A stretch of 55,383 bases of DNA from Candidatus Hydrogenedens sp. (GTDB lineage: Bacteria > Hydrogenedentota > Hydrogenedentia > Hydrogenedentales > CAITNO01). Made by a program: the position numbers and the translations under genes. Location: assembly GCA_012522755.1 (NCBI GenBank), contig JAAYJV010000097.1:1-55383 (forward strand), given 5' to 3'. The notes under the pieces were generated by a model. It did no database searches, was not told the origin of the DNA, and saw only the letters and a program-made list of their open reading frames with translations. Shown piece by piece: positions 5,253 to 55,383 of this stretch (its first letter is position 1; every line of letters starts with the position of its first letter).

Positions 5253-5551
5253 GCAGCGAAGTCACGCAAGATACTGAAGTCAGGCAAGAAGCGAAAGTAG
5301 CCCTGGGTAATCGTAAAGAACGTGTCGGACTGGTCATAAGCACGGCCATGGACAAAACCATTACCGTTGCAGTCGATCGTGTCAAAGAACATCGCCTCTA
5401 CAAAAAAGCGCTTCGTCGGACCAAGAAATACAAAGCCCACGATGCCGAAAATACCTGCAACGTAGGTGATACCGTTCGCATCAGAGAAACGCGTCCGCTG
5501 AGTAAGACAAAACGGTGGCGCCTGGTAGAAATCATCGAACGCGCGAAATAG
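5249..5551 (+). CDS. rpsQ: 30S ribosomal protein S17
   Basis: The 100-residue protein has the S17 OB-fold motifs [30 protein letters not shown] and [18 protein letters not shown]. The first 22 residues (Glu/Val/Thr-rich) are an extension compared with the usual 80-90 residues. The ATG overlaps the rpmC stop, and a later in-frame start before the core is not obvious, so the extension is probably real. S17 is a primary 16S rRNA-binding protein. Confidence 0.95.
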
Positions 5552-5569
5552 CGTCTAAGGATAGTTCAA

Positions 5570-5938
5570 ATGATCCAGATTTACTCAACATTGAATGTTG
5601 CTGACAACTCCGGTGCACGCAAACTGCGCGTCATTCAGGTCATGGGCGGATCCAGAAGAAGGTATGCCGGCCTGGGAGATATCGTCACTGCAAGCGTCCG
5701 GGAAGTCATTCCCAATGCAGCCATCAAAAAAGGCGAAGTCGTCAAGGCCGTTATCGTTCGTGTCAAGCACGACACACAGCGTCCTGATGGCACGGTAATC
5801 CGATTTGATTCAAACGCGGCCGTCCTTCTCACTCCTCAGAATGAGCCCCGTGGAACACGTATTTTCGGACCCGTCCCCCGCGAACTGCGTGAAGGCGGCT
5901 TCCTGCGTATACTGTCTCTGGCTCCCGAAGTATTATAG
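5570..5938 (+). CDS. rplN: 50S ribosomal protein L14
   Basis: The 122-residue protein begins [19 protein letters not shown] and ends with [14 protein letters not shown] and [12 protein letters not shown], the full L14 pattern at its exact usual length. L14 lies at the subunit interface and takes part in an inter-subunit bridge. TAAGGA lies just upstream of the ATG. rplX follows after 12 bases. Confidence 0.97.
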
Positions 5939-5950
5939 GATAGGTACACC

Positions 5951-6262
5951 ATGTATATCAGAAAAAAAGATACCGTTGTTGTTACCAGCGGCCGCTACAA
6001 AGGTCGGCGGGGTCGTGTCCTGGAAGTTTACCCCAAAAAAGAAACGATCCTGGTTGAAGGTGTCAACATCCGTAAACACCATACAAAACCCGGACAGACC
6101 CATCAGAGCGGCGGAATTGTTGAACGGGAAGCCCCGATTCATATTTCCAATGTCATGGGCTGGTGTGAAGAAAAACAGCAACCGTCCCAAATCAAGATGA
6201 AAACACTTGCCGATGGTCGGCGGGTCCGTGTATGGAAGCTTACTGGAGAAGTGTTGGATTAA
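5951..6262 (+). CDS. rplX: 50S ribosomal protein L24
   Basis: The 103-residue protein has the KOW motif near the N-terminus (KKDTVVVTSGRYKGRRGRVL) followed by VEGVNIRKHHTKP and GGIVEREAPIHISNV. L24 is an assembly initiator of the large subunit. Length is normal, and rplE follows after a 65-base gap. Confidence 0.96.
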   Translation: MYIRKKDTVVVTSGRYKGRRGRVLEVYPKKETILVEGVNIRKHHTKPGQTHQSGGIVEREAPIHISNVMGWCEEKQQPSQIKMKTLADGRRVRVWKLTGEVLD

Positions 6263-6327
6263 CCCCCTACAGGACAGCACAGTCAGCCTGAAGGCAATCA
6301 ACGCAGGCTGGTCAGGAGAAATAAGTC

Positions 6328-6873
6328 GTGGTTGCAAGATTAAAAGAGCACTACAAAAACGAAGTTGTGGGCACCCTGGTCAAGCAGTTCAACTATAAAA
6401 ATGTCATGCAGGTGCCGCGCCTGGAAAAAGTGGTCGTCAATATGGGTGTCGGTGATGCCATTGCCGATGCCAAAAATATGGATGCCGCCGTTGCTGAATT
6501 GACTCTGATCACAGGGCAGAAACCCGTGATCCGTAAAGCACGCAAATCCATTTCGAACTTCAAGCTTCGTGCGGGAGCGAATGTGGGTTGCATGGTCACC
6601 TTGCGCGGTGAGTACATGTGGGAATTTGTGGATCGCCTGTTCAACATCGCCATCCCCAGAATCCGTGACTTCCGGGGGCTGCCCCCCAAAGCCTTTGACC
6701 AGCAGGGTAACTACACCCTGGGCATCCGTGAACAGACTATTTTCCCTGAAGTGGATCTGGACAAGGTCAGCCGTGTCAGAGGCATGAATGTGACCTTTGT
6801 CATCAACAATACAGGATCTGCTGAAGAGAGTCATGCGTTGTTGAAGAATCTGGGAATGCCCTTTGCCGGGTAA
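6328..6873 (+). CDS. rplE: 50S ribosomal protein L5
   Basis: The 181-residue protein starts at a GTG preceded by AGGAG and contains [49 protein letters not shown] and [17 protein letters not shown], all typical of L5. L5 binds 5S rRNA and contacts P-site tRNA in the central protuberance. Length matches the bacterial family. Confidence 0.96.
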
Positions 6874-9942: not shown

Positions 9943-11274
9943 GTGGCTGCACCTATTGAAGCCTTTAAAAACGCTTTTAAAATACCGGAACTGAAAAGTC
10001 GCATTCTTTTCACTCTGTTGATGCTTACCTTGTATCGTCTCGGTGCGCACGTGCCTGTGCCCGGTGTTGATGGAAGAGCATTGGCTGAAATGCTCGGTGG
10101 CGGCTCCGGCCTGCTGGGCTTTTATGATATGTTCACGGGCGGCGCCTTCTCTCAGGCTACTGTGTTTGCCTTGGGTATCATGCCCTATATTACCTCATCC
10201 ATTATTCTGTCTCTTCTCGTCAATGTGATCCCCGCACTGGAAAATCTTCAGAAACAGGGGCAGGAAGGTCAGAAAAAAATCAATGATTACACACGATACG
10301 GCACCATCTTTTTATGTGTAGTCCAGTCCATCGGTATTGCCGTTTATCTCCAGAATCAAGGCCCCACCATTGTTCCCCGGTCAGGTATCTTTTTCATTCT
10401 CCTGACCATGATCACTCTCACGGCCGGCACCTCATTCATCATGTGGCTCGGTGAACAGATTACGGAACATGGTATCGGTAACGGCATGTCTCTCATAATT
10501 TTCACCGGTATCGTTTCCGGTATGCCCCGTGCTGTTGTGAACCTTTTCAACCTGCTGAACACGGGTCAGGTTTCCATTGCCGTCGTTCTGGTGCTTGCTT
10601 TCATGATGGTCTTCGTTGTTGCCGGTGCCATTGTTGTCACCACCGGTCAGCGTCGTATCCCCGTTCAATATCCCAAAGTGGTGAACCAGCGTCGTGTATC
10701 GGGCGGACAGCGCACCTATCTTCCTCTTCGTGTGAATCAGGCCGGTGTTATCCCCATTATCTTCGCCAGCTCCATTCTCATGCTTCCAGATGCGATTGTG
10801 CGCAGTCTGACCATTCCATCCTGGTTGGAAACACCCATTGCCATCGCCTTGAATCCTCAGGGCTTCGTCTATAATGGCGTCTATGCGCTGCTGATTATTT
10901 TCTTCTCCTTTTTCTATACAGCCAGTACCTTCCGCCCGGCGGAGATGGCCGACAATATGAAAAAGCATGGCGGTGTAATCATCGGAGTCCGACCCGGTAA
11001 AGCCACAGCCGATTACCTGGGCAAGATCATGGGATTGGTTACCTGGTCCGGTTCCGTTTTCCTGGCCATTGTCGCACTGGTTCCCGTGCTTCTGATCAAG
11101 GTTCTGCAAATTCATGATATGACTATTGCCCACTATTTCGGCGGTACCACACTGCTTATTCTCGTGGGTGTGGCTCTGGATACAGCCAAACAGATCGAAC
11201 AGCACCTGGCCATGCGTCACTATGAAGGTTTCAGCAGCAGCAAAGGTGGAAGAATCCGTTCCCGTCGTATGTAA
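9943..11274 (+). CDS. secY: Protein translocase subunit SecY
   Basis: The 443-residue membrane protein starts at GTG (9943) after AGGAG. It has the SecY pattern of ten hydrophobic segments, with RLGAHVPVPGVD before the plug region, FALGIMPYITSSIILSLL in the second segment, and RRIPVQYPKVVNQRRVSGGQRTYLPLRVNQAGVIPIIFA in the middle cytosolic loop. SecY forms the channel of the Sec translocon with SecE and SecG. adk, which often follows secY, is not present here. Confidence 0.97.
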   Translation: MAAPIEAFKNAFKIPELKSRILFTLLMLTLYRLGAHVPVPGVDGRALAEMLGGGSGLLGFYDMFTGGAFSQATVFALGIMPYITSSIILSLLVNVIPALENLQKQGQEGQKKINDYTRYGTIFLCVVQSIGIAVYLQNQGPTIVPRSGIFFILLTMITLTAGTSFIMWLGEQITEHGIGNGMSLIIFTGIVSGMPRAVVNLFNLLNTGQVSIAVVLVLAFMMVFVVAGAIVVTTGQRRIPVQYPKVVNQRRVSGGQRTYLPLRVNQAGVIPIIFASSILMLPDAIVRSLTIPSWLETPIAIALNPQGFVYNGVYALLIIFFSFFYTASTFRPAEMADNMKKHGGVIIGVRPGKATADYLGKIMGLVTWSGSVFLAIVALVPVLLIKVLQIHDMTIAHYFGGTTLLILVGVALDTAKQIEQHLAMRHYEGFSSSKGGRIRSRRM

Positions 11275-11312
11275 ATCATACTTTCGCCTGGATGCGAAGA
11301 GTTGTTTAATTG

Positions 11313-11321
11313 TGCTATAAT
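11313..11321 (+). promoter_or_regulatory. Extended -10 promoter before map
   Basis: The sequence TGC-TATAAT is a consensus extended -10 element (TGn plus TATAAT) placed 75 bases before the map start. No good -35 hexamer is visible, which extended -10 promoters do not need. It could give map, infA, rpsM and the alpha genes an input separate from the upstream ribosomal promoter. Confidence 0.45.
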
Positions 11322-11395
11322 AAGATGTTTTCAGGTTTATAAGTGTTTTTCGGAATAAGAATGCAGGGTAAAAATAATCAAGAACGGTATTTGCA

Positions 11396-12172
11396 GTGAT
11401 TGCCATTCGCTCAGAAAAGGAAATCGATCTGATGCGACAGGCGAATCGCATTGTAGCGGCTGCTCATAAACTGGCCGCAACCATGATGCAACCCGGCATT
11501 CGAACCGATGAAATAGATCGCGCTGTAGAATCCCTGATCCGTGCCGAAGGCGGGAAGCCCGCTTTCAAAGGATATCGGGGTTATCCGGCTTCAATCTGCA
11601 TCTCCATAGAAGATCAGGTTGTCCACGGGATCCCCAGTGCCAGGAGACTTCAATCCGGACAGGTGATCAGTATAGATATCGGTGCGAGTTATAAAGGTTA
11701 TTACGGCGATGCCGCAGCAACCCATGCTTGTGGCGGAGTCGATTTGTTGCGAGCCCGTCTGATGGATGCTACAGATTTGGCATTGTCACGAGCCATCCGC
11801 CAGGCGAAAGCAGGCGGGTGTCTGAATGATATTGGAAAAATAGTCGAAAAGACGGCTCTTGAAGCTGGCTTTTCGGTTGTTCGGGACTATGTGGGTCATG
11901 GCATTGGAACGCAAATGCATGAAGAACCTCAGGTCTTGAATTTTGATAACCACATGCCCGGTCCCGAACTCAGAGAAGGGATGGTGTTGGCCATAGAACC
12001 TATGCTCAATGCCGGAACTGATGTTGTACGTTCCCTGAGCGACGGCTGGACTGTGGTGACTGCTGACGGCAAGCCCAGTGCTCACTTTGAGCATACGGTC
12101 GTTGTCCGGGAGGCTGGCGGTGAGATTCTGTCCTGGTGTGATGCCCCCATGTGGGGTGACAAAAGCGACTGA
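11396..12172 (+). CDS. map: Methionine aminopeptidase, type I
   Basis: The 258-residue enzyme removes the initiator methionine from new proteins. All five metal ligands are visible: D94 and D105 (DIGASYKGYYGD), H168 (GHGIG), E201 (AIEPML) and E232 (HFEHTVVV), plus the substrate histidine in VVHGIP (H78). No N-terminal zinc-finger extension is present, which marks the short type Ia form. It starts at GTG, with no clear ribosome-binding site. The order secY-map-infA is common in bacteria, but here adk is missing. Confidence 0.96.
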   Translation: MIAIRSEKEIDLMRQANRIVAAAHKLAATMMQPGIRTDEIDRAVESLIRAEGGKPAFKGYRGYPASICISIEDQVVHGIPSARRLQSGQVISIDIGASYKGYYGDAAATHACGGVDLLRARLMDATDLALSRAIRQAKAGGCLNDIGKIVEKTALEAGFSVVRDYVGHGIGTQMHEEPQVLNFDNHMPGPELREGMVLAIEPMLNAGTDVVRSLSDGWTVVTADGKPSAHFEHTVVVREAGGEILSWCDAPMWGDKSD

Positions 12173-38395: not shown

Positions 38396-41300
38396 ATGAA
38401 GTTTACAAAAGAACAGAGAGCAGCCATTGAGGCTGGCCGCCCCGTGGTGGGGGTTTCGGCCGGTGCGGGATCGGGAAAAACAGCCATTCTCGTAGAACGC
38501 ATCTTCCATCTGCTGTCACACCCCGAATTGTGGGGAGACGTCACTCCGGGGCTGAATCGTATTGCGGCCATTACTTTCACGAACAAGGCCGCTGCTGAAA
38601 TGAAGGCCCGTCTCCGGTTGCGTTTCCGTGCCCACAGCCCTGATATCGAGCCCGATGAGCTCAGTTTCTGGCGCACCATGGAATATCAGGTGGACAGTGC
38701 ACAGATAACGACCATCCATTCCTTCTGCGCCGCTATTTTGCGTGAAAATGCCCTTCATTTCCAGATGGATCCGGACTGGAAAGTGCTGAGTGATGCCGAA
38801 TCAGCACGCCTCACCGAACGCGCGCTCATACAAACACTGGACACTCTTCTGGAGTCCGGAAACCCGGCTGCCTGTCGCCTATCCGTGCTCATGCCCCGGC
38901 ACAGCATCAAAGAGGTGCTGAAAAAAATGCTTGTTCGCCGTTGGGACTACAGGGCTGTTTTCGATGCCATGCCCGAAGGCGATGCTGAGGCTCTGTTCAC
39001 TTTCTGGCAGGAGCGTTTTCAACCCCTTTATCATGGATTGTTGCGCAAACTGGCCCGGGCTCCCCAGATCCCCTATTTTGTGGAACTTCTGCAATCTTTT
39101 GATGGGACCTGTTTCGACCCTTTTAACACCCGGGAGCAGATGCGTACGGATTATATTCATGCACTGCTATCGCTCCGGGCCGGTGTGGACAATCTGCCGG
39201 AGATTCTGACAAGATTGAAAGCAGACTATCCCGACATGCGCCATTCCGGCAAGAATTGGGTCAAGGGTTTTTACAAAGCAACGGGCGAAGCCTTGAATCA
39301 GGTTAAAAGGTGGATGGAATCCTGGGTGTGGTGTCCCGAATGGAATCCTCAGGAGAATGCTGAAAGCGCTCAGATCACGTCAGATTTCGCGGTTCTTTTT
39401 CGCGAAGCGGACAAAGAGCTGCGTCTGCTCCGTCAAGAGGCCTCAGCTCTGGATTTTGATGATATCATCAACGAGACACTGTATTACCTGAAACAAGACC
39501 CTGCTCTCTGTGACCGAGTGGCCTCATCCTTCACTTTTCTGCTCATTGACGAATTTCAGGATACGGACAGCCGTCAGCTGGATATTGCTCATCTTCTCGC
39601 AGACAGACCTGGCGGCCCATCCCTTTTCTTCGTGGGCGATGCCAAGCAATCCATTTATCTTTTCCGGGGAGCCAATGTAGGCCTTTTCAATAATGAGATA
39701 CGCCGTGACCCGGAACCGGTTTCGCTTCTGCACAATTTCCGGACCCTGCCCGATGTGCTCCATTTCATCAATGATCTCTTTGTCCGCAGTGATATGCTCA
39801 ATGCTGTGGAAGCCTACAGGCCCATGATTCCTTTCCGTCCTTCCGTCGGTGAGTCCCGGGTTGAATGTTTTGTTCCCGCCAAATTGAAGAGTGCCGGAGA
39901 TCAGCGTGAGCAGGAGGCCCGATTCATCGCTCAGCGCATCTATTCCATGTGTCACAGTGAGCAGCCTTTACAGTTGCGCCGGAAAAACGAGGAGGGCATG
40001 CGTCCCGCCACGTATGATGATATTGTGCTTCTCTTCCGGCGTGGTACCAAGATGCACAGTTATGAAGCGGCACTGCGCGAGGCCAACATTCCCTATAACC
40101 GTGTGGCTGGCGAAGGTTTTTTCAAGCGTCGTGAAGTGTTGGATGTACTGGCCATGCTGCAGCTTGTAATTGATCCTTGGGATGAGGAAGCACTTTTGAC
40201 GGTTTTACGCAGTCCTCTGGTGGGACTGTCTGACGAGGATCTCATGCGCCTGTCGCGGTGCCCCGGAGGACTGGCCGCCGCTTTTCACGAAAAAGAGATA
40301 CCCGAAAACTTTTCAGCGCCGGAGATACTGGAAGAAGGCCGCTGTCTTTTTGAAGATTTATATGAACGCCGTGAGTGGCCGCCAGCCCGCTGGCTGGAGC
40401 GTCTTGTGCAGCTCACCCGTTTTGAGGCCATTCTGCTGGATCGCTATCTGGGTCTTCAGAGCGTGTCCAATTTGCGTAAATTACGGAACATGGCTGAGAA
40501 ATTCAGTCAGACAGATCTGGGCGTTCTGCCGGAGTTCGCCCGCTATGTGGAAGAGCTTTCCGTGCGTGAACTGCGTGAAGGTGATGCCGAGCTCCAGACT
40601 CAGGGCATGGGTGCCGTCACACTGATGACCATTCATAAATCCAAAGGGCTGGAGTTTCCCATTGTCTTTCTGCCCGAACTTATGGTGGGTACATCAGAAC
40701 CGGATCCCGGCATTTTATGTATGCACCAGGATCTGGGTGTGGCGGCCAAACACAGTGACGGCCTGGGCGGTTTCACGGGCGGTGGTTATTATGAACTGTT
40801 GAAACGGCTCTCTTTCTGGGAGAATCTGATGGAGCGGGCCCGAATCCTGTATGTTGCCATGACCCGTGCACGCGAATATCTGATCTTGTGCGGTGTCGAT
40901 GAAGTCAATCCCTTCACCTGGGCAGGCATCCTCAACCGTTTCTATGGTCTTCCCGACAGAAAGCATGGCGAAATGATTCAGGGCGACGGGTGGAACATCT
41001 TTGTTCATCGCGTCGCAACAGATGCTCCGCCAGAGAATGCGAGAAAAAGAAAAGTTCTGCAACCCGATGAAGAAGCCATCAGCAAGCGCCTTCAGCCTCT
41101 GATACAGGAAAGCACCTCAAGAAAGCATATTTCCGTCTCAGCACTTCTTGAAAACCTGGGCTATGGCGAAGATGAGGAAGAGGCTGCCAGAGTCATTTCC
41201 CTTCTCCCCGATTCCAGTCAGGAAGAACAAGAGCAGGAGCCTCAGCCGCGTATTCGTGGAGCAGCCATGGATCGCGGAACGCTTTTTCACCGTCTTTTTG

Positions 41301-41770
41301 AACTCTGGGATTTCCAAAAAGATATCCTTCCCTCTCTGGAGAACCTGGTTTTTGAATCGGGTATCGATTTCCGTCAGGCTTCGGAGCTTCTCACAAGTAT
41401 GCGCCGCTGCGTGGATACTTTTCGTCAGGCCGCCAGCTGGCCTCTCTTTGCTCAGGCTGAAAGCCTGGAGAAAGAAGTGCCTTTCATGCTGAATCTGGGA
41501 GAGTTCATGCTCCATGGCGTGGTCGATGTTCTCATTGATGGGCGCATTCTCGTGGACTATAAAACAGGCCACCATCACCCAGACAACCAGGCCCGCTATG
41601 AAAGCCAGTTGCTCCTCTATGGTGCCGCCTTGAAGGAGATTCGTGGTACACTTCCTGAGAAGGCCATACTCTGGTATCTGGATGCGGGTGTATTTGAAGA
41701 AATAAGCCTGGATCCCGTTAGGATGGAAAATCTTGTGCAGCAGGCTTCAGCAAGCCTCATGAAGAGTTGA
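38396..41770 (+). CDS. addA: AddA-like UvrD helicase-nuclease
   Basis: The 1124-residue protein is a superfamily 1 helicase: Walker A GAGSGKT (23-29), TIHSFCAAIL, Walker B LLIDEFQDTD (382-391), GDAKQSIYLFRGA, and TIHKSKGLEFPIVFLPE with later motif VAMTRARE. A RecB-type nuclease domain at the end has D1044 (GVVDVLIDG), D1054 and K1056 (DYKTG). This combination is that of AddA, which with AddB processes double-strand breaks for recombination. No addB is next to it, so the partner lies elsewhere or it acts alone. GGAGGG precedes the ATG. Confidence 0.87.
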   Translation: MKFTKEQRAAIEAGRPVVGVSAGAGSGKTAILVERIFHLLSHPELWGDVTPGLNRIAAITFTNKAAAEMKARLRLRFRAHSPDIEPDELSFWRTMEYQVDSAQITTIHSFCAAILRENALHFQMDPDWKVLSDAESARLTERALIQTLDTLLESGNPAACRLSVLMPRHSIKEVLKKMLVRRWDYRAVFDAMPEGDAEALFTFWQERFQPLYHGLLRKLARAPQIPYFVELLQSFDGTCFDPFNTREQMRTDYIHALLSLRAGVDNLPEILTRLKADYPDMRHSGKNWVKGFYKATGEALNQVKRWMESWVWCPEWNPQENAESAQITSDFAVLFREADKELRLLRQEASALDFDDIINETLYYLKQDPALCDRVASSFTFLLIDEFQDTDSRQLDIAHLLADRPGGPSLFFVGDAKQSIYLFRGANVGLFNNEIRRDPEPVSLLHNFRTLPDVLHFINDLFVRSDMLNAVEAYRPMIPFRPSVGESRVECFVPAKLKSAGDQREQEARFIAQRIYSMCHSEQPLQLRRKNEEGMRPATYDDIVLLFRRGTKMHSYEAALREANIPYNRVAGEGFFKRREVLDVLAMLQLVIDPWDEEALLTVLRSPLVGLSDEDLMRLSRCPGGLAAAFHEKEIPENFSAPEILEEGRCLFEDLYERREWPPARWLERLVQLTRFEAILLDRYLGLQSVSNLRKLRNMAEKFSQTDLGVLPEFARYVEELSVRELREGDAELQTQGMGAVTLMTIHKSKGLEFPIVFLPELMVGTSEPDPGILCMHQDLGVAAKHSDGLGGFTGGGYYELLKRLSFWENLMERARILYVAMTRAREYLILCGVDEVNPFTWAGILNRFYGLPDRKHGEMIQGDGWNIFVHRVATDAPPENARKRKVLQPDEEAISKRLQPLIQESTSRKHISVSALLENLGYGEDEEEAARVISLLPDSSQEEQEQEPQPRIRGAAMDRGTLFHRLFELWDFQKDILPSLENLVFESGIDFRQASELLTSMRRCVDTFRQAASWPLFAQAESLEKEVPFMLNLGEFMLHGVVDVLIDGRILVDYKTGHHHPDNQARYESQLLLYGAALKEIRGTLPEKAILWYLDAGVFEEISLDPVRMENLVQQASASLMKS

Positions 41771-41994
41771 AAACTGTTTTGTCGAAATTTTATTTTGAAA
41801 GAAAAAGACCTGATTTGATCTGAGCAACCGTTTACCGCATAATTACCTGTGAAGTGGGCGGCTGCTTTTCAGCCGGCTGTCACTTTGCCACAGAAAAACC
41901 AAGCGTACGGTGAAAGTAACAAAAAGCGCCATGCGGGCGTTGGTAAGGGCTTTGTAACGTGCTTTCTTTTTCGCGTTTTAAAAAAGAAGCGGTG

Positions 41995-44196
41995 ATGATC
42001 CGCCGCATATTCAAGGGAGAACCGCATGCGTACCGCCTTTTGATCGAGCGGTACCAACCCATGACCTACGCTGTGGCGCTTGCCAATACAGGCAGCGTTT
42101 TTCTTGCAGACAAAGCGACAGCGGCCGCTTTTGAAAGCGGCTATGGTCGTTTGATTTCCCTTACGGATCCCCGGAAACTCGGCATCATGATGTGCGGTCT
42201 GGCCCAGGTGGAATCGGATAATCTCCTGTCCAGACGGGCCGCCAACTGGAATCTTCCGCGAACGCGCAGGGAAGCTTCGCCCGTGGATCTGCAATGGATT
42301 CAGACGGAATTGATTGAACCGCTCATGGAAGAGCTGGGTTCCTTCACTCATCAGGAGCGCATGGGTATTCTGCTCCACAGTTTTTGCGGCATGAACCCCC
42401 GTCAGATTGCGGAAGTGCTCAAGATAGAACATAAGGAAGCGGCTGAGGATCTGGCACGGACCCGCGAGAATGTGGAAGCGGCCTTGTTGAAAGAGGTCCG
42501 CAAAGCCCTTTTCCCGGAGATCAACAACGCCGAACGTCTGGCCCATATCGTCACTACAGTGGGTGGTCAGGCATCGGCTGAAAAGGCTCTGAAAAAAACC
42601 ACTCTTGGAAAAAGACGGGGCCGTCGTACGCCTTTGCTTCTCACAACGCTGATCCTGCTGGTTGTGGGAATAGGCGCTTATTTCGGGTACACGGCATTTT
42701 ATGGAGTCGGTCCGCAACTGTTTTTCGGAGAAGGTCCGACTTCCTCCGAAGGAACATCCGCACAAGAAAACGACCCATCTGAAGAGAGCCGACGGGCCGA
42801 TCGTCCCGCACCGACCAACTATTCCATTGAAGGCCGTGTGGTGGACATCCGCTTTATTGAAGATGGACTGGCCGGCCTCACAGTGCGCAGCCAGGATAAG
42901 GAAGTGGAAACTGATTCCTACGGTGCCTTTGAAATCCGCGGGGTAGCCCGGGGTGAGCATCGGGTCTCCGTTTATTATGGGGATAAACTCCTGCGTGAAA
43001 ACGTGCGTCATCATACCAACCAGAAAAATCCGTCCATTGAAGTGGAGATGGATCCGTCCATGCCGACCCGATTCAAGATGGTCGGAAGGGTAACCGACCG
43101 GCTCACGGGACTTGCCATCAGAGAGGTGGAACAGGCCTGTATCAAAGAACATACAACCATCTTGCAGCCCTTTGTGTTGAATATGTTTCAAAAGCAGGAG
43201 AATGAAGACGGATTCGTGCGGGTGAATCTGCTGACGCCCGGTGACTATACCGTATGGGTACGTGCAAAAGGTTATGCTCCTCTGGCTGTTCCTTTCGTCA
43301 TAGATGAACATTGGGATGCTCATGAGATAGTGGAAATACCTCTTCACCGGGCCGCATCGCTGGAAGGCATTCTCTACAACGCCAATGAACTCAGCATCAA
43401 CGGAGCCAATATTCTTCCCCGCGAAGGATCCAGGATGAACCTGACTAAAAGCCGTATCTCATATAAAGAGACTGATTCCATGGGGCGCTTTGAAATATAT
43501 GAACTTCCCATAGGAGTTCATTCATTACTTTTCGCCAGTGAAGATCATGGTACAGGTCGGGCTATCGTTCAATTGGAGTCAGGAAAGACCACACGTATCC
43601 GGGTTCAGGTACCCCGATCCAGTACCATCAGCGGTGACCTCTCCCTTCATGGCCGTCCTGCACAATTCAAAGATTTACGCCGACGTCTGGGCGGAAGTTA
43701 CGTTGATCTGCTGAAGACGGTCAATTACCTGTCTCCGGGTCAATATGAACTGCCCTTTACGCCCGAAACAGTGTTTTTCTGGGGCTCCGTTGAACCGGGA
43801 GCCGGAGACAACTGGTTTGACCGACGCATGGAGCAGGAAGCGGAGGTGACCACTTCGCAGACCACCTGGATTGACTTCAACTTTGACGATGGCAAAGGAT
43901 CCATTCAGGGGAATGTTTCCCTTCAGGGCGCCACACCTCGTTCCGCCTTTGTGGAGATTGTCCTGAACGGCACCAATAATCTGGAAAAAGACCGGATCTT
44001 TTATGATCTGGGTTCCAGCGGTTCCTATCACGCAAGCCGTCTCCCCCTGAAATCTGGCGAGGTCATTGTCTATGCCACACCGAACAGCGTCAGCCAGGAG
44101 GAATTCTGGCAGAGCCGTTCCTCGCTGAAAAGAAAGAGTACTTCCTTCACTCTGGATGAGGGGAAAACATCATTGCATATCAACTTCAATCTCTGA
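41995..44196 (+). CDS. Sigma-factor-like domain fused by a membrane segment to carboxypeptidase-regulatory-like domains
   Basis: From the ATG at 41995 the protein has 733 residues; a GTG at 41959 would add 12. Residues 1-90 resemble ECF sigma region 2 (FKGEPHAYRLLIERYQPMTY) but are degenerate. Residues 120-170 resemble region 4 (HQERMGILLHSFCGMNPRQIAEVLKIEHKEAAEDLARTRENV). After a basic stretch a membrane segment follows (221-241, RTPLLLTTLILLVVGIGAYF). The periplasmic part has at least four beta-sandwich units of carboxypeptidase-regulatory-like type (IEGRVVDIRFIEDGLAGLTVR, KMVGRVTDRLTGLAIREVE, SLEGILYN, STISGDLSLHG). The result would be a membrane-tied sigma-like factor with its own sensor. 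No anti-sigma gene is next to it. Confidence 0.7.
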   Translation: MIRRIFKGEPHAYRLLIERYQPMTYAVALANTGSVFLADKATAAAFESGYGRLISLTDPRKLGIMMCGLAQVESDNLLSRRAANWNLPRTRREASPVDLQWIQTELIEPLMEELGSFTHQERMGILLHSFCGMNPRQIAEVLKIEHKEAAEDLARTRENVEAALLKEVRKALFPEINNAERLAHIVTTVGGQASAEKALKKTTLGKRRGRRTPLLLTTLILLVVGIGAYFGYTAFYGVGPQLFFGEGPTSSEGTSAQENDPSEESRRADRPAPTNYSIEGRVVDIRFIEDGLAGLTVRSQDKEVETDSYGAFEIRGVARGEHRVSVYYGDKLLRENVRHHTNQKNPSIEVEMDPSMPTRFKMVGRVTDRLTGLAIREVEQACIKEHTTILQPFVLNMFQKQENEDGFVRVNLLTPGDYTVWVRAKGYAPLAVPFVIDEHWDAHEIVEIPLHRAASLEGILYNANELSINGANILPREGSRMNLTKSRISYKETDSMGRFEIYELPIGVHSLLFASEDHGTGRAIVQLESGKTTRIRVQVPRSSTISGDLSLHGRPAQFKDLRRRLGGSYVDLLKTVNYLSPGQYELPFTPETVFFWGSVEPGAGDNWFDRRMEQEAEVTTSQTTWIDFNFDDGKGSIQGNVSLQGATPRSAFVEIVLNGTNNLEKDRIFYDLGSSGSYHASRLPLKSGEVIVYATPNSVSQEEFWQSRSSLKRKSTSFTLDEGKTSLHINFNL

Positions 44197-44246: not shown

Positions 44247-45032
44247 ATGACACTTCTTACTTCCCTGCTCTTCACCTGGCTGGCTGTTTTCGGAGAGGTG
44301 ACGGTTGAGTTGCCTTCTGCTGAAGAACAGATTCAGGAAAGCTCTGATACAGGGGATACCATTGTCCTGCTTCAGGGCATGGGTCGGGGCTGTGCCTCTT
44401 TGTGGGTGCTCGATACACGGCTTCAGAGTGCGGGCTACAGAACCCTGAACTTCCCCTATGTGGCGCACAGCCGATCCATAGAAGAAATGGCTCTTCAGTT
44501 TCTGGAATTTTTGCGTGAACGGGTGGAACAGTTTCCCTATCATATCGTTGCCCATTCTCTGGGAACCCTGATTGCCCGGGCCGCCTTTGAACAGGAATTG
44601 CCCCCGGGCCTCGGTCGGGTAGTGCTCATCGCACCACCCAATGAACCCACCGGCCTGCTCCGTTTACTCAAGGAAAATCCCGTATATCAATGGTTTACAG
44701 GGAGCAGCGGCCAGCAGGTGGCTTCTGATGAGTTTTATGAAAATCTGCCACCGCCCCCTGTGGAATTCGCCATCATAGCCGGCGACCGGGGCCAGGAGTT
44801 TACCCTGACTGAGCCCAACGATGGCGTCATTACCGTAGCCAGCACCCGTCTGCCCGGTATGGCCGACTGGATTGTCATGCCCCATGCCCACAATTTTCTT
44901 GCCAACAGCCGACGGGTAGCCGCCCTTTGTGTCTCTTTTCTTGAAAAAGGATCGTTCAATCGTGAAGAAGTGAGTGAAGAGCGGGCGGCCGGGGAACAGC
45001 CTCGGGAATACCGGGAAGAACCGTCCCCCTGA
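44247..45032 (+). CDS. Secreted or lipid-anchored lipase-like alpha/beta hydrolase
   Basis: The 261-residue protein has a short hydrophobic start (residues 2-16) that could be a signal peptide or anchor. It then has an alpha/beta-hydrolase core with the oxyanion strand VLLQGMGRG (40-48), the nucleophile S104 in AHSLGT, D192 in EPNDGVITVAST and H213 or H215 in MPHAHNFL. This arrangement resembles lipase class 2 and PGAP1-like hydrolases. The substrate is unknown. The C-terminal tail is charged and probably disordered. Confidence 0.7.
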   Translation: MTLLTSLLFTWLAVFGEVTVELPSAEEQIQESSDTGDTIVLLQGMGRGCASLWVLDTRLQSAGYRTLNFPYVAHSRSIEEMALQFLEFLRERVEQFPYHIVAHSLGTLIARAAFEQELPPGLGRVVLIAPPNEPTGLLRLLKENPVYQWFTGSSGQQVASDEFYENLPPPPVEFAIIAGDRGQEFTLTEPNDGVITVASTRLPGMADWIVMPHAHNFLANSRRVAALCVSFLEKGSFNREEVSEERAAGEQPREYREEPSP

Positions 45033-47552: not shown

Positions 47553-48245
47553 TTGCCCCTCTTTCCTCATTCCTCACTCCTTGTCCCGCGCCCTCATCTC
47601 TCGTCCCAAGGTGCAACCAGCAAAAGTAAAACATGGAAATTGAAGATTGAAACAAGCCATCTTTTTGCTGTGTCTCATTGTGCTGTCCGTGTTTGGAGAC
47701 GATTTTGCGCTGTGAAGAAAAATCTTGTTTTCATTCTCTTTTCAGGAAATTCCACTGTAAATTTTGTATGTTTGTAACGGGGTGTAACAAGTGGAACAGC
47801 GTTAAATGGTTGATGTTTGTTCATTGTTCAGGCAGAAAAAAGAATCCTGACCATTGGAATAAGGATTCAACTCATTGCGTTACTTTGCCTGTGACAATGG
47901 TTGTTCGTGATGATGGACAAACATGAAGGTGACGGGCCTCCTCCAGTAAGGACATTATGGCTAGACCGAACAAAAGTGATTCTTTGTTTTATAACGGTTT
48001 CTTCAGAAATGCTGACGTACTCCAAAAGAGACGTTCCAACTTTCTCTTTGCCTCATTATTTTTTCTTGTTGCGCATTCATATTCCAAAAATGTCATCTTA
48101 GAAATTTCAGACTTGTCCGATCGCTTCTATCCGGTCGGGCAGGTCTGTTTCAGGTTTTAATCCGAGAGCACCAATCTCATCGTGACAATCCTGTATGGAA
48201 AACAGGCGAGTCCAACCTTTCTATGAAACAGAAGGCAACAGAATC

Positions 48246-51200
48246 ATGAGTACCGTATCCACCTTCAAGAAATTTCCCAAAAGCAATACAAGTGCAGCAC
48301 TGTCGCTGCTCTTTGTCGGAATGCTGCTGCTTCCTTTAGCACTTCAGGCGCAGCCGACAGAAATTGTTTTTTCATCACCGGGCTCCAATACCTTCCAGGT
48401 CCCCGCAGGAATCACTGAGATTACTGTGGAGGTTTGGGGAGCTGGCGGTCGCGGTGCCTTCCGTACGACTGGCAACAATCTGCCCCTGGCCGGTGGCGGT
48501 GGCGGTGCCTACGCACGGAGCGTACTCACCGTGACGCCTGGTCAGAGCTTCCCGCTCTATGTGGGAGCCGGGAGTTTTTCTCCGGATCCGGGCGAGGATT
48601 CCTGGTTTGGAAGTGACACCACAGTCCTGGCCAAGGGCGGTGAATCCTCCGCACAAAACAGCAATGTTCCCGGTGCTGGCGGTGCTGGCGCTTTGAGCGT
48701 TGGTGACCAGACCTACAGTGGCGGATATGGTGCCCAGGGTGCTGGCGGACTCTTTGGTGGTGGCGGTGGTTCTTCAGCGGGCAGTAATGCTGCTGGCGCT
48801 TATGCCGATGACACCTCCCTCATCCGTCAGGGTGCAGCCGCTCCGGCCAAAGGCGGTGCTGGCGGAGCAGGTGCTGAAGATGGTGTTGCCGGTGAAGCCG
48901 GTGCACTTCCCGGCGGTGGTGGCGGTGGTGCCTACCGTGCCGGAAACAGCACAACGCAAAATCCCGGCCGGGGAGCTTCGGGCCAGGTTGTTGTCACCTA
49001 CAATTGTGTGGTGGAAAAACCTGTTTTCGCTGCCGGTTCCGTAAGCAGCCGTTGCTCCGGTGCTGAAAGCATTATCTATGAAGCCACAGCTGCGGGCGCG
49101 GCCAGCATTACCTATACTTTGGATGCGGCCAGTCTGGCTGGTGGGAATACCATCGATGCGGTTACAGGGGAACTGACCTTTGATGCGAATTGGGCCGGTC
49201 TCACTGTGATTACCGCCACAGCGGCCACAGGCGAATGCTTCCTTACAGAGGAATTCACCGTCAACACACTGGCCAGTGTGGGCATTCCTGTTTTCAGCTC
49301 CAGTGCCATCACACAGCGTTGCGCCACGGCGGAGAGCATTGTCTTCAGCGCCACAGCCGACGATGCATCCAGCATTGAATACAGTCTGGATGCAGCCAGC
49401 CTTGCTGCTGGAAATACCATTGACGAGCTTACAGGTGAAGTGACTTTTGACGCTTCCTGGCACGGCACAACAACCATTACAGCCATCGCCCACGGATGCA
49501 ACACCTCCATTCCCGTAACACACGTTGTGGTGACAGGTGTTATTTTTGCGAACAATGATTTGCTTCAGGTGCTGCAGGGGAATCCCATCACCTTTAATGT
49601 ACTCGATAATGATCAATGTAATTACGATCCGACTACGGTTTCCATTATCTCCAATCCTGTGGGCGGGTTTGTGCAGGATGGTGGTAATGGCGAAATGACC
49701 TACGTCAGTTTTGGTGAGTTCCACGGAACGGACCAATTCCGCTATCGCGTTTGCACTCCCGGCGGTGTTGAGTGTGTGCAGGCCACAGTATACATAGAAG
49801 TGCTGGAAGCCATCGATGATCCCTGCTTCATCGCCAATAAAGAAAGTACCTTCTATCTGCCTTATCCGGAAAATGTGTCCCAGCTCCGGCAGAGTCTCTT
49901 GAGTGCGGGAAGTGTAGAGATGAACAGTGGCAATAATGGCGGCACCAATGCCCGAAGTGTTATCAGCATTCTGGTGCCCTATCCCGGAACACGCATTGTT
50001 TATGACCACTGGGAAGATGGCTATGAAAGCGACTCTGACTTTCCTGCTCAGAGCAGCACGCAAGTATGGGGCGATGGTGACCCTAGCAACGGTGTGGCAC
50101 CGGGCTATCCCAACGACATCATCCCGGCCGGCGGTTATATTATTCTTGACAATACCTTCAGCTGGAATCGTCCTGATACGGAAATCCGCTATGACGGTAA
50201 AGATAAGATCACGGCATCTTCAAATGTCGTCGTTTCCAAAGTGAGTGGCGACTCTAACCGCTTTTCAGTCCAAAACGTGAAGACCAATGTGAGCGATGCT
50301 TCCACGGCGGGCATGTTCTTTGTTCTGCCCTTTGGTGAAGACATGGCCACCTCAGCCGTTACCGTTTTCCGCTATACCGGCCTTTTTGTCCGTGCCTATG
50401 AAGACAATACAGAGATCGCCCTGGATCTGGATGGCGATGGTGTTGACGATAAGTTTTCCCCGACGCTCATGGAAGGGGAGGTATGGTTTTACAACGGCTA
50501 CACCTCTCAAACAAATCGAGGGTATAATCCGGATGATGTCAATAAGGCTGGTGACATCCAGGCGGGTGCCCGTGTAAGTGCCACGAAGCCGGTCAGTGTG
50601 GACATGGTTTTCGGTGGCATTGACAGCTATGGAACCCGCAATCTGGCCATTTTGCCCAGTAATTATTATGGGCATACCTACTACTCTCCCGTTTATTCGA
50701 CCAATACTTCTGCGCCAGCTCTGGCCTATTTTGTGAATCCCAATGAGGACCCCATTACGATCACCTGGACCCGGCGTGGTGATAATCTCGGCGATCCCAT
50801 GGAGAGCGGCATTATCACGGTGCCTCCCGATAATGGTTATGCTTCCTTCAATATGGATAAAGCCAAAGCGACGAAGTTCCAAAGCACGGGGGGAGAATAC
50901 TATACAGCCGTGGCCATCATGGATGCTGATGCTTCAGGCTCCACTTATGACTGGGCCTTCACCATGATCCCGGAACGGAAACTCACCCCCATGGCTGCTG
51001 TGGCCTGGGCGCCGGGCAGCGATGGTGGTACTGGCGGAAATGCCAACTCTGACGGCTCGCGCAACTATGCCCCTGTGTGGGTAACGGTGAGCCAGCCTGC
51101 GACAATTTATGTGAAGTATGATGGCGACATTACCACTGGACCCAACCAGAGCCCTTGCGGTGCCTATTATGATGTCTCCTACAGTCTGAATGCTCTGGAA

Positions 51201-54200
51201 GCCCGCTTGATTTACGGTCCCGCCAGCGACAACTCGGGTATGGCCGTTTTTAACTGTAACAATGTTCCTCTCATTGCTGTCTGGGGTCAGCGTACCTTCG
51301 CACACAGCCAGGATGGGGTAAATTATGTTATTCCACCGACCAGTTCCCCCGCACAGGATGTGGGTTATACCATGGAACCCCTGTGTCTGGGGCATCTGAT
51401 ATTTGCCACGGATGACTATGAGGTGACAGCCATAGAAACGCCCGTCACCGTGGATGTTCTGGCGAATGACGGCGCCTATCTCTGTGACATTGATACTGAC
51501 AGTGTGACCGTTGTTGCAGACCCGGCCAATGGCAGTGTTGTCGTGAATTCCGATGGGACCATCACCTATACGCCCAACTTCGGTTTTACCGGTCTCGATT
51601 CTTTCGACTATACCATTTGCGCCATAGAGCCTGTTTCTGTTTGCGACACCGGTACGGTGTATATCAACATTCCCTGTAATCTGACGCCGGGCTACAATAC
51701 CATTGGTGCCCATGCCTTCCTGGACTACAATATCAATGGCTTTTCTGACAGCGAAGATATCGCTGTTGAAGGCATTGAAATGGAACTTTACGAAGACGTG
51801 AATGGCGATGGCATTCTGGACAGCGGTGATATCCTTCTGCATACAGGATTGACGGATGCCACAGGTCGTGCCCTCTTTATTCTCGAACAGGACTTCAGCT
51901 ATCGCGATGAATTCCAGACAGCCAACGATCCCAATGGTGATGATGGCACTCTGTCCTGGAGTACGCCTTGGAGCAAGCAGGATTCGAGCCCCGATTTCAA
52001 TGCCGGCAGTATCCGAATTATCACCAATGGCCTGCAAGTTCGAGGCACTGGAACCAATGCAGGGTCCTGGGTGGAGAGAACTTTTGATCTGTCCGAGGCT
52101 CATATTGCGGAACTATCTTTTGACTGGCTGAAAACAACCTTCAACTCATCCAGTAACGACTGGGTGGAGATAATGATCAGTGACAGCCCCTCAGGCCCCT
52201 TTACAGCTCTGAAACATTACAGTGGTACGGCGGCCGGTGGTGGTTCTGACAGCTTTGATATTACAGGCTTCAAGAGTGCGACAACCACCATCCGCTTCAA
52301 TGGATCGCCCCATAGCGGCTTCTCCAACAGCGAAAGAGTCACTTTCAGCAATGTGGAGGTTCGCTATTACCAGGAGGTTCACTACCTGGCCAGGATTGCT
52401 GATCCTATTGTTGACGACTTCATGCTCACCTCCGTAACGGAGTACTTCCCCATCTCCTTTGTGGGAATCAACAATTCCTCATGCACCAGCATTTTCGGTA
52501 TTGCCAAAGCGGATCTGTCTGTTCAGAAAACAGTAGACGACCCGAACCCTCTGGTGGGGACGGAAAGTGTCTTTACCATTACCGTGACGAACAACGGACT
52601 CACCGATGCGGATAATGTGGAACTTGCAGATATCCTGCCCATCGGCCTGGATTATGTTTCTCACAGCGGTATTGGAACTTATAATCATCTGTCCGGACTG
52701 TGGCTGGTGGGTCGCGTGGATCGGAATACCAGCGCAAGTCTGGAGATCAGAGCAACCACCAATCTCATTGCTTTGACTGGTGTTATTAACAAGGCTGAAA
52801 TCATCAATTCCAGTGTTCCGGATCCTGATGGAACGAATGACGAAGATGATGTGCATGTATTGGCACGAAGTCGTGTTGTTGCTGTCGATGATCTTTATGG
52901 ACCCATTAACGGTTATGCCGGTGATCCCAATGCCGGTAACGCCCTCGCTAACGACAGCTATAATTTCGGTCCCGCTACATTTGTCAATGTGACCATGACA
53001 CAGGTAACTCCGGCTACGCCTCTGGTTCCCGGTGCTCCCGTACCCGAACTGGACCCCAACACAGCTGTGGTCAGTATCCCTCCTGAAACTCCTGCAGGAA
53101 CGTACCAGATTCCCTATACCATTTGCGACAATCTGGACCTCACCAACTGTGATTCCGCTGTTGTTACGGTCATCGTAGCGGCTGCGCCTATCCATGCTGA
53201 AGATGATCTCTATGGCCCCTTCATCGGCCGTGATGGAACTCCCTTCGCGGGCAATGCTCTCAGTAACGATACTTTGAACGGTGCGCCCGTAGATATCAAT
53301 GAGATCATTCTCACGGAAGTGGCTCCTGCGACTCCCGTGCGACCCGGCGAACCGGTACCTGAAATGGATCCCATTACCGGCGATGTGAGTGTGCCTCCGG
53401 GAACACCTTCCGCTGTTTACGAGATCAAATATCAAATTTGTGAGAAGCTGAATCCCACGAACTGTGATACAGCCACAATTTTCATCGACGTGGAAGTGTC
53501 CATCATTGAAGCCAATGACGACAATTATGGACCTGTGAATGGTACCCATGGTACGCCCAATGTGGGCAACGCCCTGGACAACGACTTGCTCGACGGCAGT
53601 CTTGTGGATATCAATGATATCAACGTGAGTGTTGTGAACGGTGCCACGCCTGTCACTCCCGGCGATCCTGTTCCCGTTCTCAATACGACAACAGGACAGG
53701 TGTCTGTTCCCCCCGGAACGCCCCATGGCACCTATACCATTGACTATTCTATTTGTGAAAAACTGAATCCCGACAACTGTGACGACGCAACGATCACCGT
53801 TGAAGTGTATCTGGCAAGCCTGGAAGTGGAAAAAGTTGCTGACGTGACGGAACTTCCTGTTGCCGGTACGACGATTACCTACACCATTACCGTGACGAAT
53901 ACCGGTACCGTGACGCTTACAGATGTGGAGATCAAAGATCCACTGACAGGTCTGGAAGAAGGTCCCATGACACTTACTGTCGGTGAGGTGAAAACTTACA
54001 CGGATACCTATGTGGTACTTCAGAGCGATGTTGACACCGGCACCCTTGCGAACACGGCCACAGCCACGGCTAAAGACCCTGATGGCAATCCCGTGGACGA
54101 TGATGACACTGAGACCCTGACCGTCACGAAGGCACCGGCCATTGAAGTGACGAAAATCGCTGACCATCCGACGCTTCCTGTTGCGGGTACGACGATCAAT

Positions 54201-55383
54201 TACACGATCACTGTGACCAATACGGGTAACGTGACCTTGAGCGATGTCATGGTGAATGACGCCCTTACAGGTCTTGCTGATGGTCCGTTGACACTGCTTC
54301 CCGGTGAAGACAAGGTCTATAACGAGACCTATGTGGTTCTTCAGAGCGATGTCGACAACGGCACCCTTGCGAATACAGCCACAGCCACGGGCAAAGACCC
54401 TGATGGCGGTGATGTGGATGACGATGATGACGTGACGCTCACAGTGACGAAAGCACCGGCCATTGAAGTGACGAAAGTTGCTGACGTGACGGCCCTTCCT
54501 GTTGCGGGTACGACTATCAATTACACGATTACCGTGACCAATACGGGTAACGTGACCTTGAGCGATGTTATGGTGAATGACCCGCTTACAGGTCTCTCTG
54601 ACGGTCCTCTGACACTGCTTCCCGGTGAAGACAAAGTCTATAACGAGACCTATGTGGTGCTTCAGAGCGATGTCGACAACGGCACCCTTGCGAATAAAGC
54701 CACAGCCACTGGCAAAGACCCTGATGGCGGTGATGTGGATGACGATGATGACGTGACCTTGACCGTGACAAAGGCACCTGCCATTGAAGTGACGAAAGTC
54801 GCTGACGTGACGGAACTTCCTGTTGCGGGCACGACGATCAATTACACGATTACCGTGACCAATACGGGTAACGTGACCTTGAGCGATGTCATGGTGAATG
54901 ACGCTCTTACAGGTCTTGCTGATGGTCCGTTGACACTGCTTCCCGGTGAAGACAAGGTCTACAATGAGACCTACGTGGTACTTCAGAGTGATGTCGACAC
55001 CGGCACCCTTGCGAATACAGCCACAGCCACGGCTAAAGATCCTGATGGCGGTGATGTTGACGATGACGACACCGTGACCTTGACCGGCACGAAGACGCCT
55101 GGCATTGAAGTGACGAAAGTCGCTGACGTGACAGCCCTTCCTGTTGCGGGCACGACGATCAATTACACGATCACTGTGACCAATACGGGTAATGTGACCC
55201 TGAGCGATGTCATGGTGAATGACCCGCTTACAGGTCTTGCTGATGGTCCTCTGACACTGCTTCCCGGTGAAGACAAGGTCTACAATGAGACCTACGTGGT
55301 GCTTCAGAGTGATGTCGACAACGGCACCCTTGCGAATACGGCCACAGCCACGGGTAAAGACCCTGATGGCGGTGATGTTGACG
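48246..55383 (+). CDS. Giant secreted multi-repeat surface protein (3' end outside window)
   Basis: The frame runs from the ATG at 48246 (AAGG upstream) to the window edge, over 2,379 codons without a stop. A signal peptide (about 1-36) is followed by a glycine-rich domain (about 50-250; AGGGGGAY, GAGGAGAL). Two Ig-like copies follow (TYTLDAASLAGGNTIDAVTGELTFD and the matching EYSLDAASLAAGNTID). Next are a cadherin-like module with VLDNDQC, a long domain with IVYDHWEDGYESD (49810-51390), a second cadherin-like module (FATDDYEVTAIETPVTVDVLANDG), and an SdrD-B-like module with calcium-loop DVNGDGILDSGD. A DUF11 unit (ADLSVQKTVDDPNP), three 105-residue repeats and at least five 107-residue DUF7507-like repeats end the visible part. 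It is likely an adhesin or surface-layer protein. The anchor or sorting signal is not in view. Confidence 0.88.
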   Translation, partial: MSTVSTFKKFPKSNTSAALSLLFVGMLLLPLALQAQPTEIVFSSPGSNTFQVPAGITEITVEVWGAGGRGAFRTTGNNLPLAGGGGGAYARSVLTVTPGQSFPLYVGAGSFSPDPGEDSWFGSDTTVLAKGGESSAQNSNVPGAGGAGALSVGDQTYSGGYGAQGAGGLFGGGGGSSAGSNAAGAYADDTSLIRQGAAAPAKGGAGGAGAEDGVAGEAGALPGGGGGGAYRAGNSTTQNPGRGASGQVVVTYNCVVEKPVFAAGSVSSRCSGAESIIYEATAAGAASITYTLDAASLAGGNTIDAVTGELTFDANWAGLTVITATAATGECFLTEEFTVNTLASVGIPVFSSSAITQRCATAESIVFSATADDASSIEYSLDAASLAAGNTIDELTGEVTFDASWHGTTTITAIAHGCNTSIPVTHVVVTGVIFANNDLLQVLQGNPITFNVLDNDQCNYDPTTVSIISNPVGGFVQDGGNGEMTYVSFGEFHGTDQFRYRVCTPGGVECVQATVYIEVLEAIDDPCFIANKESTFYLPYPENVSQLRQSLLSAGSVEMNSGNNGGTNARSVISILVPYPGTRIVYDHWEDGYESDSDFPAQSSTQVWGDGDPSNGVAPGYPNDIIPAGGYIILDNTFSWNRPDTEIRYDGKDKITASSNVVVSKVSGDSNRFSVQNVKTNVSDASTAGMFFVLPFGEDMATSAVTVFRYTGLFVRAYEDNTEIALDLDGDGVDDKFSPTLMEGEVWFYNGYTSQTNRGYNPDDVNKAGDIQAGARVSATKPVSVDMVFGGIDSYGTRNLAILPSNYYGHTYYSPVYSTNTSAPALAYFVNPNEDPITITWTRRGDNLGDPMESGIITVPPDNGYASFNMDKAKATKFQSTGGEYYTAVAIMDADASGSTYDWAFTMIPERKLTPMAAVAWAPGSDGGTGGNANSDGSRNYAPVWVTVSQPATIYVKYDGDITTGPNQSPCGAYYDVSYSLNALEARLIYGPASDNSGMAVFNCNNVPLIAVWGQRTFAHSQDGVNYVIPPTSSPAQDVGYTMEPLCLGHLIFATDDYEVTAIETPVTVDVLANDGAYLCDIDTDSVTVVADPANGSVVVNSDGTITYTPNFGFTGLDSFDYTICAIEPVSVCDTGTVYINIPCNLTPGYNTIGAHAFLDYNINGFSDSEDIAVEGIEMELYEDVNGDGILDSGDILLHTGLTDATGRALFILEQDFSYRDEFQTANDPNGDDGTLSWSTPWSKQDSSPDFNAGSIRIITNGLQVRGTGTNAGSWVERTFDLSEAHIAELSFDWLKTTFNSSSNDWVEIMISDSPSGPFTALKHYSGTAAGGGSDSFDITGFKSATTTIRFNGSPHSGFSNSERVTFSNVEVRYYQEVHYLARIADPIVDDFMLTSVTEYFPISFVGINNSSCTSIFGIAKADLSVQKTVDDPNPLVGTESVFTITVTNNGLTDADNVELADILPIGLDYVSHSGIGTYNHLSGLWLVGRVDRNTSASLEIRATTNLIALTGVINKAEIINSSVPDPDGTNDEDDVHVLARSRVVAVDDLYGPINGYAGDPNAGNALANDSYNFGPATFVNVTMTQVTPATPLVPGAPVPELDPNTAVVSIPPETPAGTYQIPYTICDNLDLTNCDSAVVTVIVAAAPIHAEDDLYGPFIGRDGTPFAGNALSNDTLNGAPVDINEIILTEVAPATPVRPGEPVPEMDPITGDVSVPPGTPSAVYEIKYQICEKLNPTNCDTATIFIDVEVSIIEANDDNYGPVNGTHGTPNVGNALDNDLLDGSLVDINDINVSVVNGATPVTPGDPVPVLNTTTGQVSVPPGTPHGTYTIDYSICEKLNPDNCDDATITVEVYLASLEVEKVADVTELPVAGTTITYTITVTNTGTVTLTDVEIKDPLTGLEEGPMTLTVGEVKTYTDTYVVLQSDVDTGTLANTATATAKDPDGNPVDDDDTETLTVTKAPAIEVTKIADHPTLPVAGTTINYTITVTNTGNVTLSDVMVNDALTGLADGPLTLLPGEDKVYNETYVVLQSDVDNGTLANTATATGKDPDGGDVDDDDDVTLTVTKAPAIEVTKVADVTALPVAGTTINYTITVTNTGNVTLSDVMVNDPLTGLSDGPLTLLPGEDKVYNETYVVLQSDVDNGTLANKATATGKDPDGGDVDDDDDVTLTVTKAPAIEVTKVADVTELPVAGTTINYTITVTNTGNVTLSDVMVNDALTGLADGPLTLLPGEDKVYNETYVVLQSDVDTGTLANTATATAKDPDGGDVDDDDTVTLTGTKTPGIEVTKVADVTALPVAGTTINYTITVTNTGNVTLSDVMVNDPLTGLADGPLTLLPGEDKVYNETYVVLQSDVDNGTLANTATATGKDPDGGDVD
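52881..53819 (+). repeat. Three 315-base (105-residue) repeats inside the surface protein
   Basis: Copies start at 52881, 53196 and 53511, exactly 315 bases apart. Each codes for A-x-DD-x-YGP...GNAL-x-ND, then ATPV-x-PG-x-PVPE-x-D, V-x-VPP-x-TP, and YTICDNLDLTNCD or YQICEKLNPTNCD. They have diverged more than the following array. From memory, similar NATPV/VPPGTP repeats occur in surface proteins of Bacteroidota. Confidence 0.85.
53820..55383 (+). repeat. At least five 321-base (107-residue) DUF7507-like repeats
   Basis: Copies start at 53820, 54141, 54462, 54783 and 55104, exactly 321 bases apart; the fifth is cut by the window edge. Each codes for IEVTKVADVTALPVAGTTI, YTITVTNTGNVTLSDV, DPLTGL-x-DGPLTLLPGE, YVVLQSDVD-x-GTLAN-x-ATAT and ends in an Asp-rich DPDGGDVDDDDD stretch. 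Copies 2 to 5 are almost identical at the DNA level, including silent positions, while copy 1 differs more. Confidence 0.92.

Follow-up and report, generated by a model that had tools for sequence, protein, structure and literature searches.

A probable repurposed ECF sigma factor, tethered to the membrane, in a family of Candidatus Hydrogenedentota

Gene structure and domain organization

The window analysed here is a stretch of 55,383 nucleotides from a Candidatus Hydrogenedens genome, in which a gene encodes a sigma-like module, a membrane helix and an extracytoplasmic region in one chain, as in tethered sigma hybrids. The features of this gene and its surroundings are given below, with residues numbered from the ATG at 41995 as residue 1.

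41944..41949, + strand: Shine-Dalgarno-like TAAGGG, 9 nt upstream of GTG 41959
41959..44196, + strand: complete gene of 745 aa starting at GTG; encodes the sigma-like module, transmembrane (TM) helix and sandwich ectodomain
41959..42234, + strand: sigma2-like domain, residues -12 to 80; ECF sigma2 profile matches, model helices 10-32, 35-53 and 59-79
42112..42126, + strand: region 2.2 core-binding positions 40, 43 and 44; K-x-x-A-A, where active ECFs have D-x-x-Q-E
42187..42210, + strand: positions 65, 69 and 72 of the -10 pocket and melting region; M-L-V, where active ECFs have W-I-N
42286..42498, + strand: sigma4-like domain, residues 98-168; model helices 99-159; most conserved part of the protein
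42427..42465, + strand: residues 145-157, the former -35 recognition helix, which has become acidic
42499..42624, + strand: residues 169-210, with a basic stretch and juxtamembrane helices (162-176 and 179-201 in the model)
42634..42690, + strand: single predicted TM helix, residues 214-232 (Kyte-Doolittle; model helix 215-233)
42703..42816, + strand: acidic periplasmic linker of low complexity, residues 237-274, modelled mostly with a pLDDT below 50
42817..44193, + strand: ectodomain, built of some five beta-sandwich units at residues 276-350, 360-450, 455-538, 544-630 and 635-728
44247..45032, + strand: downstream alpha/beta hydrolase gene (Abhydrolase_1, E=1.5e-6), a candidate operon partner restricted to related genera

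An earlier note on this DNA had placed the start codon at ATG 41995. In the orthologues examined, an ATG at the equivalent position was absent from most, and an in-frame GTG or TTG was found about 12 codons upstream of it, give or take a few codons, with purine-rich AAGG- or AGGA-type stretches a few nucleotides ahead. Because the orthologues share this GTG or TTG and a Shine-Dalgarno-like stretch lies upstream, the start was moved to GTG 41959, which is most likely the true one and gives the protein of 745 residues. Full-length orthologues of this protein are 39-65% identical within its own taxonomic family, and the contigs carrying close relatives all belong to Candidatus Hydrogenedentota MAGs.

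The membrane segment of the earlier description was recovered as a single TM helix, with a Kyte-Doolittle 19-residue mean of 2.08 over residues 214-232. The basic stretch KKTTLGKRRGRR precedes this helix, and therefore the N terminus is predicted to lie inside the cell. At least four carboxypeptidase-regulatory-like domains had been proposed outside the membrane, and these are real: the Pfam model CarboxypepD_reg matched three stretches (E=2e-15, 57.4 bits against a cut-off of 32.3), about five sandwich units follow a disordered linker in the model of the whole protein, and the best Foldseek matches of the ectodomain were Cna-B/pilin-type sandwich arrays. Pfam searches up to E=10 showed no zf-HC2 or FecR-type anti-sigma domain in the protein, and Pfam gave no match to a receiver domain either.

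Four proteins of about 1,200 residues in other genomes (L121-L124, in G045, G054, G042 and G020) carry related sandwich arrays after an N-terminal TM segment. They were considered as long tethered sigma factors and rejected, all four having no sigma part, which suggests domain shuffling.

Homology and fold of the sigma-like module

Single-sequence searches of Pfam, NCBIfam and the PDB barely detect the sigma part, the best Pfam score being that of Sigma70_r4_2 (E=0.009) and the NCBIfam model TIGR02937 scoring E=1.1e-3, and profiles were required. A profile built from intact tethered ECFs matched the module at E=4.8e-28 when run against the six-frame translation of the genome, and the profile of the orthologues matched Bacillus subtilis SigW at 2.2e-6 in a search of the PDB, which bears out the initial reading of degenerate ECF sigma regions 2 and 4 at the N terminus. 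The profile match to PhyR was weak (NCBIfam, 4.7e-4). The sigma part escapes the curated models, and similar proteins may therefore hide among sequences annotated by their ectodomains only.

A structure prediction of residues 1-175 had been suggested as a check. The AlphaFold2 model of residues 1-211, for which the alignment held orthologues alone, reached a pLDDT of 83 and a pTM of 0.83, and its predicted fold is that of a sigma factor. The 43 best Foldseek matches in the PDB were ECF sigma factors, transcription complexes or PhyR, with probabilities up to 1.00 but marginal E-values (best 6.7e-3). TM-scores were higher against anti-sigma-bound sigma factors than against RNAP-bound ones (0.67 by target length for SigW-RsiW versus about 0.3), which is weak evidence given that the arrangement of domains in an AlphaFold2 model of a lone sigma is what is compared. 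The sigma part is N-terminal, as proposed, but it ends at about residue 168, and some 30 further helical residues separate it from the TM segment. Judged from the profile matches and the predicted structure, the module adopts the ECF fold and is homologous to the sigma2 and sigma4 domains of ECFs.

Loss and retention of sigma factor residues

We aligned 71 sigma modules (16 orthologues and 55 active-type comparison ECFs) and scored those positions at which 75% or more of the active-type sequences agree. In region 2.2, D40 and Q43, which we take to be equivalent to D403 and Q406 of sigma70, are kept in none of the 16 orthologues, Q43 being a Q in 55 of the 55 comparison ECFs, and an acid at position 44 is kept in 4 of 16. 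Contacts to the beta-prime coiled coil are made by residues that primary and ECF sigma factors have in common (PMC6411747), and the orthologues lack these region 2.2 contacts. The promoter-melting residue N72 is likewise found in none of them, I69 is kept in 4 and W65 in 7. By spacing, W65, I69 and N72 correspond to SigH W81, I85 and N88, of which the alanine mutants are defective (PMC6411747), and the orthologues do not retain this set of -10 pocket and melting residues.

Similar changes were seen in the former -35 recognition helix. Of the sigmaE residues that contact the -35 element, T169, S172 and R173 (PMC6713349) are at positions now occupied by E148, E151 and D152; R152 is kept in 0 of 16 orthologues, and E151 is present in all 16. 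Two other -35 contacts, R155 and mostly R157 (sigmaE R176 and R178), are still present. The mean net charge of the helix is -0.9, versus +4.3 in tethered ECFs, +2.0 in ECFs of the same genome and +2.2 in other ECFs, and the helix is no longer basic.

Positions that support the fold are kept in all 16 orthologues (G8, Y20, F46, L53, L127, L153 and R155) or in 15 of 16 (A38 and A139), and they likely hold the fold together. Fifteen further residues, including W101, P109, R89, R91, E151, T156 and N159, are near-invariant and specific to this group of proteins, which we refer to as pseudo-sigmas. Hydrophobic positions able to bind the beta-flap remain in sigma4, and contact with RNAP could therefore still occur.

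We infer from these losses that the module has lost sigma activity. The earlier note had put forward an active sigma released by proteolysis, that is, a tethered ECF cut by a site-1 protease and then by RseP, the fragment of which would direct RNAP to unusual promoters as IutY does. This architecture is shared with IutY and ECF52/53, intact tethered paralogues occur in the phylum, the genome encodes homologues of RseP and of S41 proteases, and R155 and the hydrophobic positions of sigma4 have been kept. However, all 16 orthologues have lost the region 2.2 Asp, the Gln found in every comparison ECF and the melting Asn, and acidic residues replace -35 contacts, so that core binding, melting and promoter reading would all be affected, and we regard an active sigma as quite unlikely. 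The fallback of the same note, a sigma mimic, appears from these sequence losses to be the best fit.

Distribution and intact tethered relatives

Searches with the orthologue profile found exactly one copy of the pseudo-sigma gene in 16 of the 17 genomes of the family, in all seven genera, and the sigma-like part is present in every copy found. In the 51 phylum genomes outside the family, the profile had no match at 1e-30 except in one (G061), the copy of which is of the intact type.

A profile of the intact type matched 66 of 68 phylum genomes at 1e-28, with up to 19 matches per genome, a count that takes in some ordinary ECFs and, within its family, the pseudo-sigma itself. Among the matches listed, most lie in ORFs longer than 400 residues, and a hydrophobic segment follows the sigma part in 30 of 30 tethered ORFs examined. 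A search for paralogues had been proposed, and intact tethered relatives were indeed found throughout the phylum; in the genome of the window, however, only the pseudo-sigma among 8 ECF-like ORFs exceeds 233 residues, and the search there gave no tethered paralogue. The relatives (L021, L023, L086, L106, L108 and others) resemble it in their N-terminal sigma2-sigma4 module, at least one hydrophobic segment and, in many, a sandwich-rich ectodomain, and they are its direct phylogenetic relatives. They differ in keeping D-x-x-Q-E, the W, I and N residues and a basic recognition helix, and in occurring several per genome. This set of intact tethered ECFs appears to be undescribed; it would represent a large one-protein route from the envelope to RNAP across the phylum.

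The ORFs of intact tethered ECFs with sigma2-sigma4, a TM segment and a long ectodomain (L021, L023, L025, L026, L027, L030 and L086-L114) reach about 1,400 residues. Separately, six ECFs of Verrucomicrobia (L045, L047, L048, L052, L059 and L060) are 516-662 residues long with at least two hydrophobic segments after the sigma part, and may be another tethered or polytopic type of ECF.

Conservation and evolutionary history

Mean pairwise identity among the orthologues is 67% in sigma4 and 58% in sigma2, compared to 36-49% in the ectodomain units, 41% in the TM segment and 19% in the periplasmic linker. Between the window and the nearest genome, sigma2 is 85% and sigma4 83% identical, and 50-59% of the fourfold sites in conserved codons differ.

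These numbers bear on whether the protein could be a decaying relic of a tethered ECF, in which the ectodomain alone matters. Many functional sigma residues have been lost, and the phylum does contain TM-ectodomain proteins without a sigma part. But the sigma-like part is the most conserved across the seven genera while fourfold sites have diverged, no copy found has dropped it, and it carries near-invariant residues specific to the family; therefore, decay was rejected, and we give it hardly any credence.

In a tree made by a quick method, in which many forks are open, the pseudo-sigmas form one clade (support 100) nested within the tethered ECFs and adjoining the intact protein of G061, the exact sister being uncertain owing to the long stem. 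The stem has a length of 1.71 and the tips are short. A long stem together with a sigma part that is the most conserved region is the pattern expected of neofunctionalisation.

Comparison with known systems and proposed mechanism

Taking together the homology, architecture, residue losses, conservation and single-copy distribution, we consider that the protein is probably a repurposed, membrane-anchored ECF sigma that signals by protein binding under an envelope ectodomain. Its orientation in the membrane is predicted and its action as a sigma mimic is proposed, and its partner and signal are guesses.

Sigma mimicry as a principle of control is known mainly from PhyR, the alphaproteobacterial anti-anti-sigma. 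Like the pseudo-sigma as we read it, PhyR uses an ECF-like fold for protein binding and not for transcription, and it is among both the fold matches and the weak profile matches; it differs in being soluble, with a receiver domain and a known partner, NepR, and in having no membrane anchor or ectodomain.

The closest architecture described is that of IutY of Pseudomonas putida (ECF243), a hybrid of sigma and anti-sigma in which the sigma becomes active after cleavage by Prc and RseP (PMC5411451). IutY likewise has a cytosolic sigma, a single TM segment and a periplasmic domain in one chain (PMC5411451), but it works with an outer-membrane receptor and its ectodomain is an anti-sigma cell-surface-signalling domain. 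The tethered fusions of ECF48, ECF52 and ECF53 are thought to work like IutY (PMC8999054). These, for example SCO4117, share the C-terminal TM fusion and extracytoplasmic extension (PMC8999054), whereas they are actinobacterial, contain a zinc-finger anti-sigma segment and are regarded as active sigma factors, SCO4117 having a carbohydrate-binding domain. Planctomycete ECFs with WD40 repeats are a comparable lineage-specific expansion fused to large domains (PMC8567305), but the fused domain is another one and the sigma part is treated as functional.

The earlier note had called this an undescribed system. Fusions of sigma, TM segment and ectodomain controlled by intramembrane proteolysis are in fact known (IutY and ECF48/52/53; PMC8999054, PMC5411451); it was the conserved non-sigma version and the expansion in Hydrogenedentota that we did not find in the literature searched. 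Many subscription papers lay outside this search, which gave no match for ECF factors in Hydrogenedentota or for fusions of sigma and carboxypeptidase-regulatory domains, and no description of a conserved membrane-anchored non-canonical sigma fold.

We propose the following model. The ancestor of the Hydrogenedentota family would have had an ordinary tethered ECF with sigma2-sigma4, a TM segment and an ectodomain, one paralogue of which kept the fold but lost the surfaces with which a sigma binds core RNAP, melts promoters and reads the -35 element, and new invariant residues would have been fixed in it. On the envelope side, the sandwich ectodomain may serve for sensing or binding, and the cytoplasmic module may relay what it meets there through a protein partner by sigma mimicry. 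The likeliest partner would be an anti-sigma factor or another sigma-binding protein, held at or released from the membrane, possibly after cleavage of the RseP type. A more specific form of this model, an integral-membrane sigma mimic that passes envelope signals to transcription through an anti-sigma factor or RNAP at the membrane, is put forward only tentatively. If true, a single-copy, nearly universal gene of one bacterial family would carry an independently evolved, membrane-anchored counterpart of PhyR. A tethered ECF that became a second case of mimicry would mean that the sigma fold can turn into a signalling adaptor, and the phylum itself still has the intact relatives from which this change could be traced.

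Gene neighbourhood and candidate partners

In the neighbourhoods inspected, there was no anti-sigma gene adjacent to the pseudo-sigma gene, in agreement with the earlier suggestion that the system could work without a separate anti-sigma. The order AddA, pseudo-sigma gene, alpha/beta hydrolase and PanE-like gene was found in genera g1 and g3 and partly in g4, and was absent from genera g2, g5, g6 and g7. The hydrolase lies downstream at four of the compared loci (L032, L035, L129 and L130) and not at most others in the family, and the loci compared across the family have no conserved neighbour in common. Because the arrangement is missing from four genera, gene order names no partner.

The sigma fold might instead be reused outside transcription, for example as a scaffold or sensor relay that links an envelope protein to a cytoplasmic enzyme. 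The new invariants W101, P109, R89, R91, T156 and N159 would suit such a role, as would the absence of sigma or anti-sigma neighbours, and a hydrolase is the next gene in two to three genera. Against this, the hydrophobic positions that have been kept are those that sigma-like domains use for partner binding, and nothing speaks positively for any partner outside transcription; we consider this alternative rather doubtful, and a role in protein binding linked to sigma control remains our preferred reading.

The genome encodes one zf-HC2 protein beside an ECF and two without one. The latter two are anti-sigma-like membrane proteins (contig C77, L133, at 5305-6870 on the - strand and 10436-11929 on the + strand) in a locus of large TPR-type proteins. 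They were considered as anti-sigma partners, but no ECF was found in this TPR-rich locus and nothing connects them with the pseudo-sigma. The RseP-like and S41 protease homologues of the genome are both of widespread kinds.

The gene upstream, at 38396-41770 on the + strand of the window, is of the AddA helicase/nuclease type; it lacks the AddB-like gene found ahead of its equivalent in related genera (L032 and L035), and its upstream neighbour here is a pyruvate phosphate dikinase gene on the opposite strand. At the other end, an ORF of at least 2,396 residues (48195-55382, + strand) runs off the end of the window and encodes near-identical surface-protein-like repeats, as in a secreted adhesin; the long minus-strand ORFs within it are antisense shadows.
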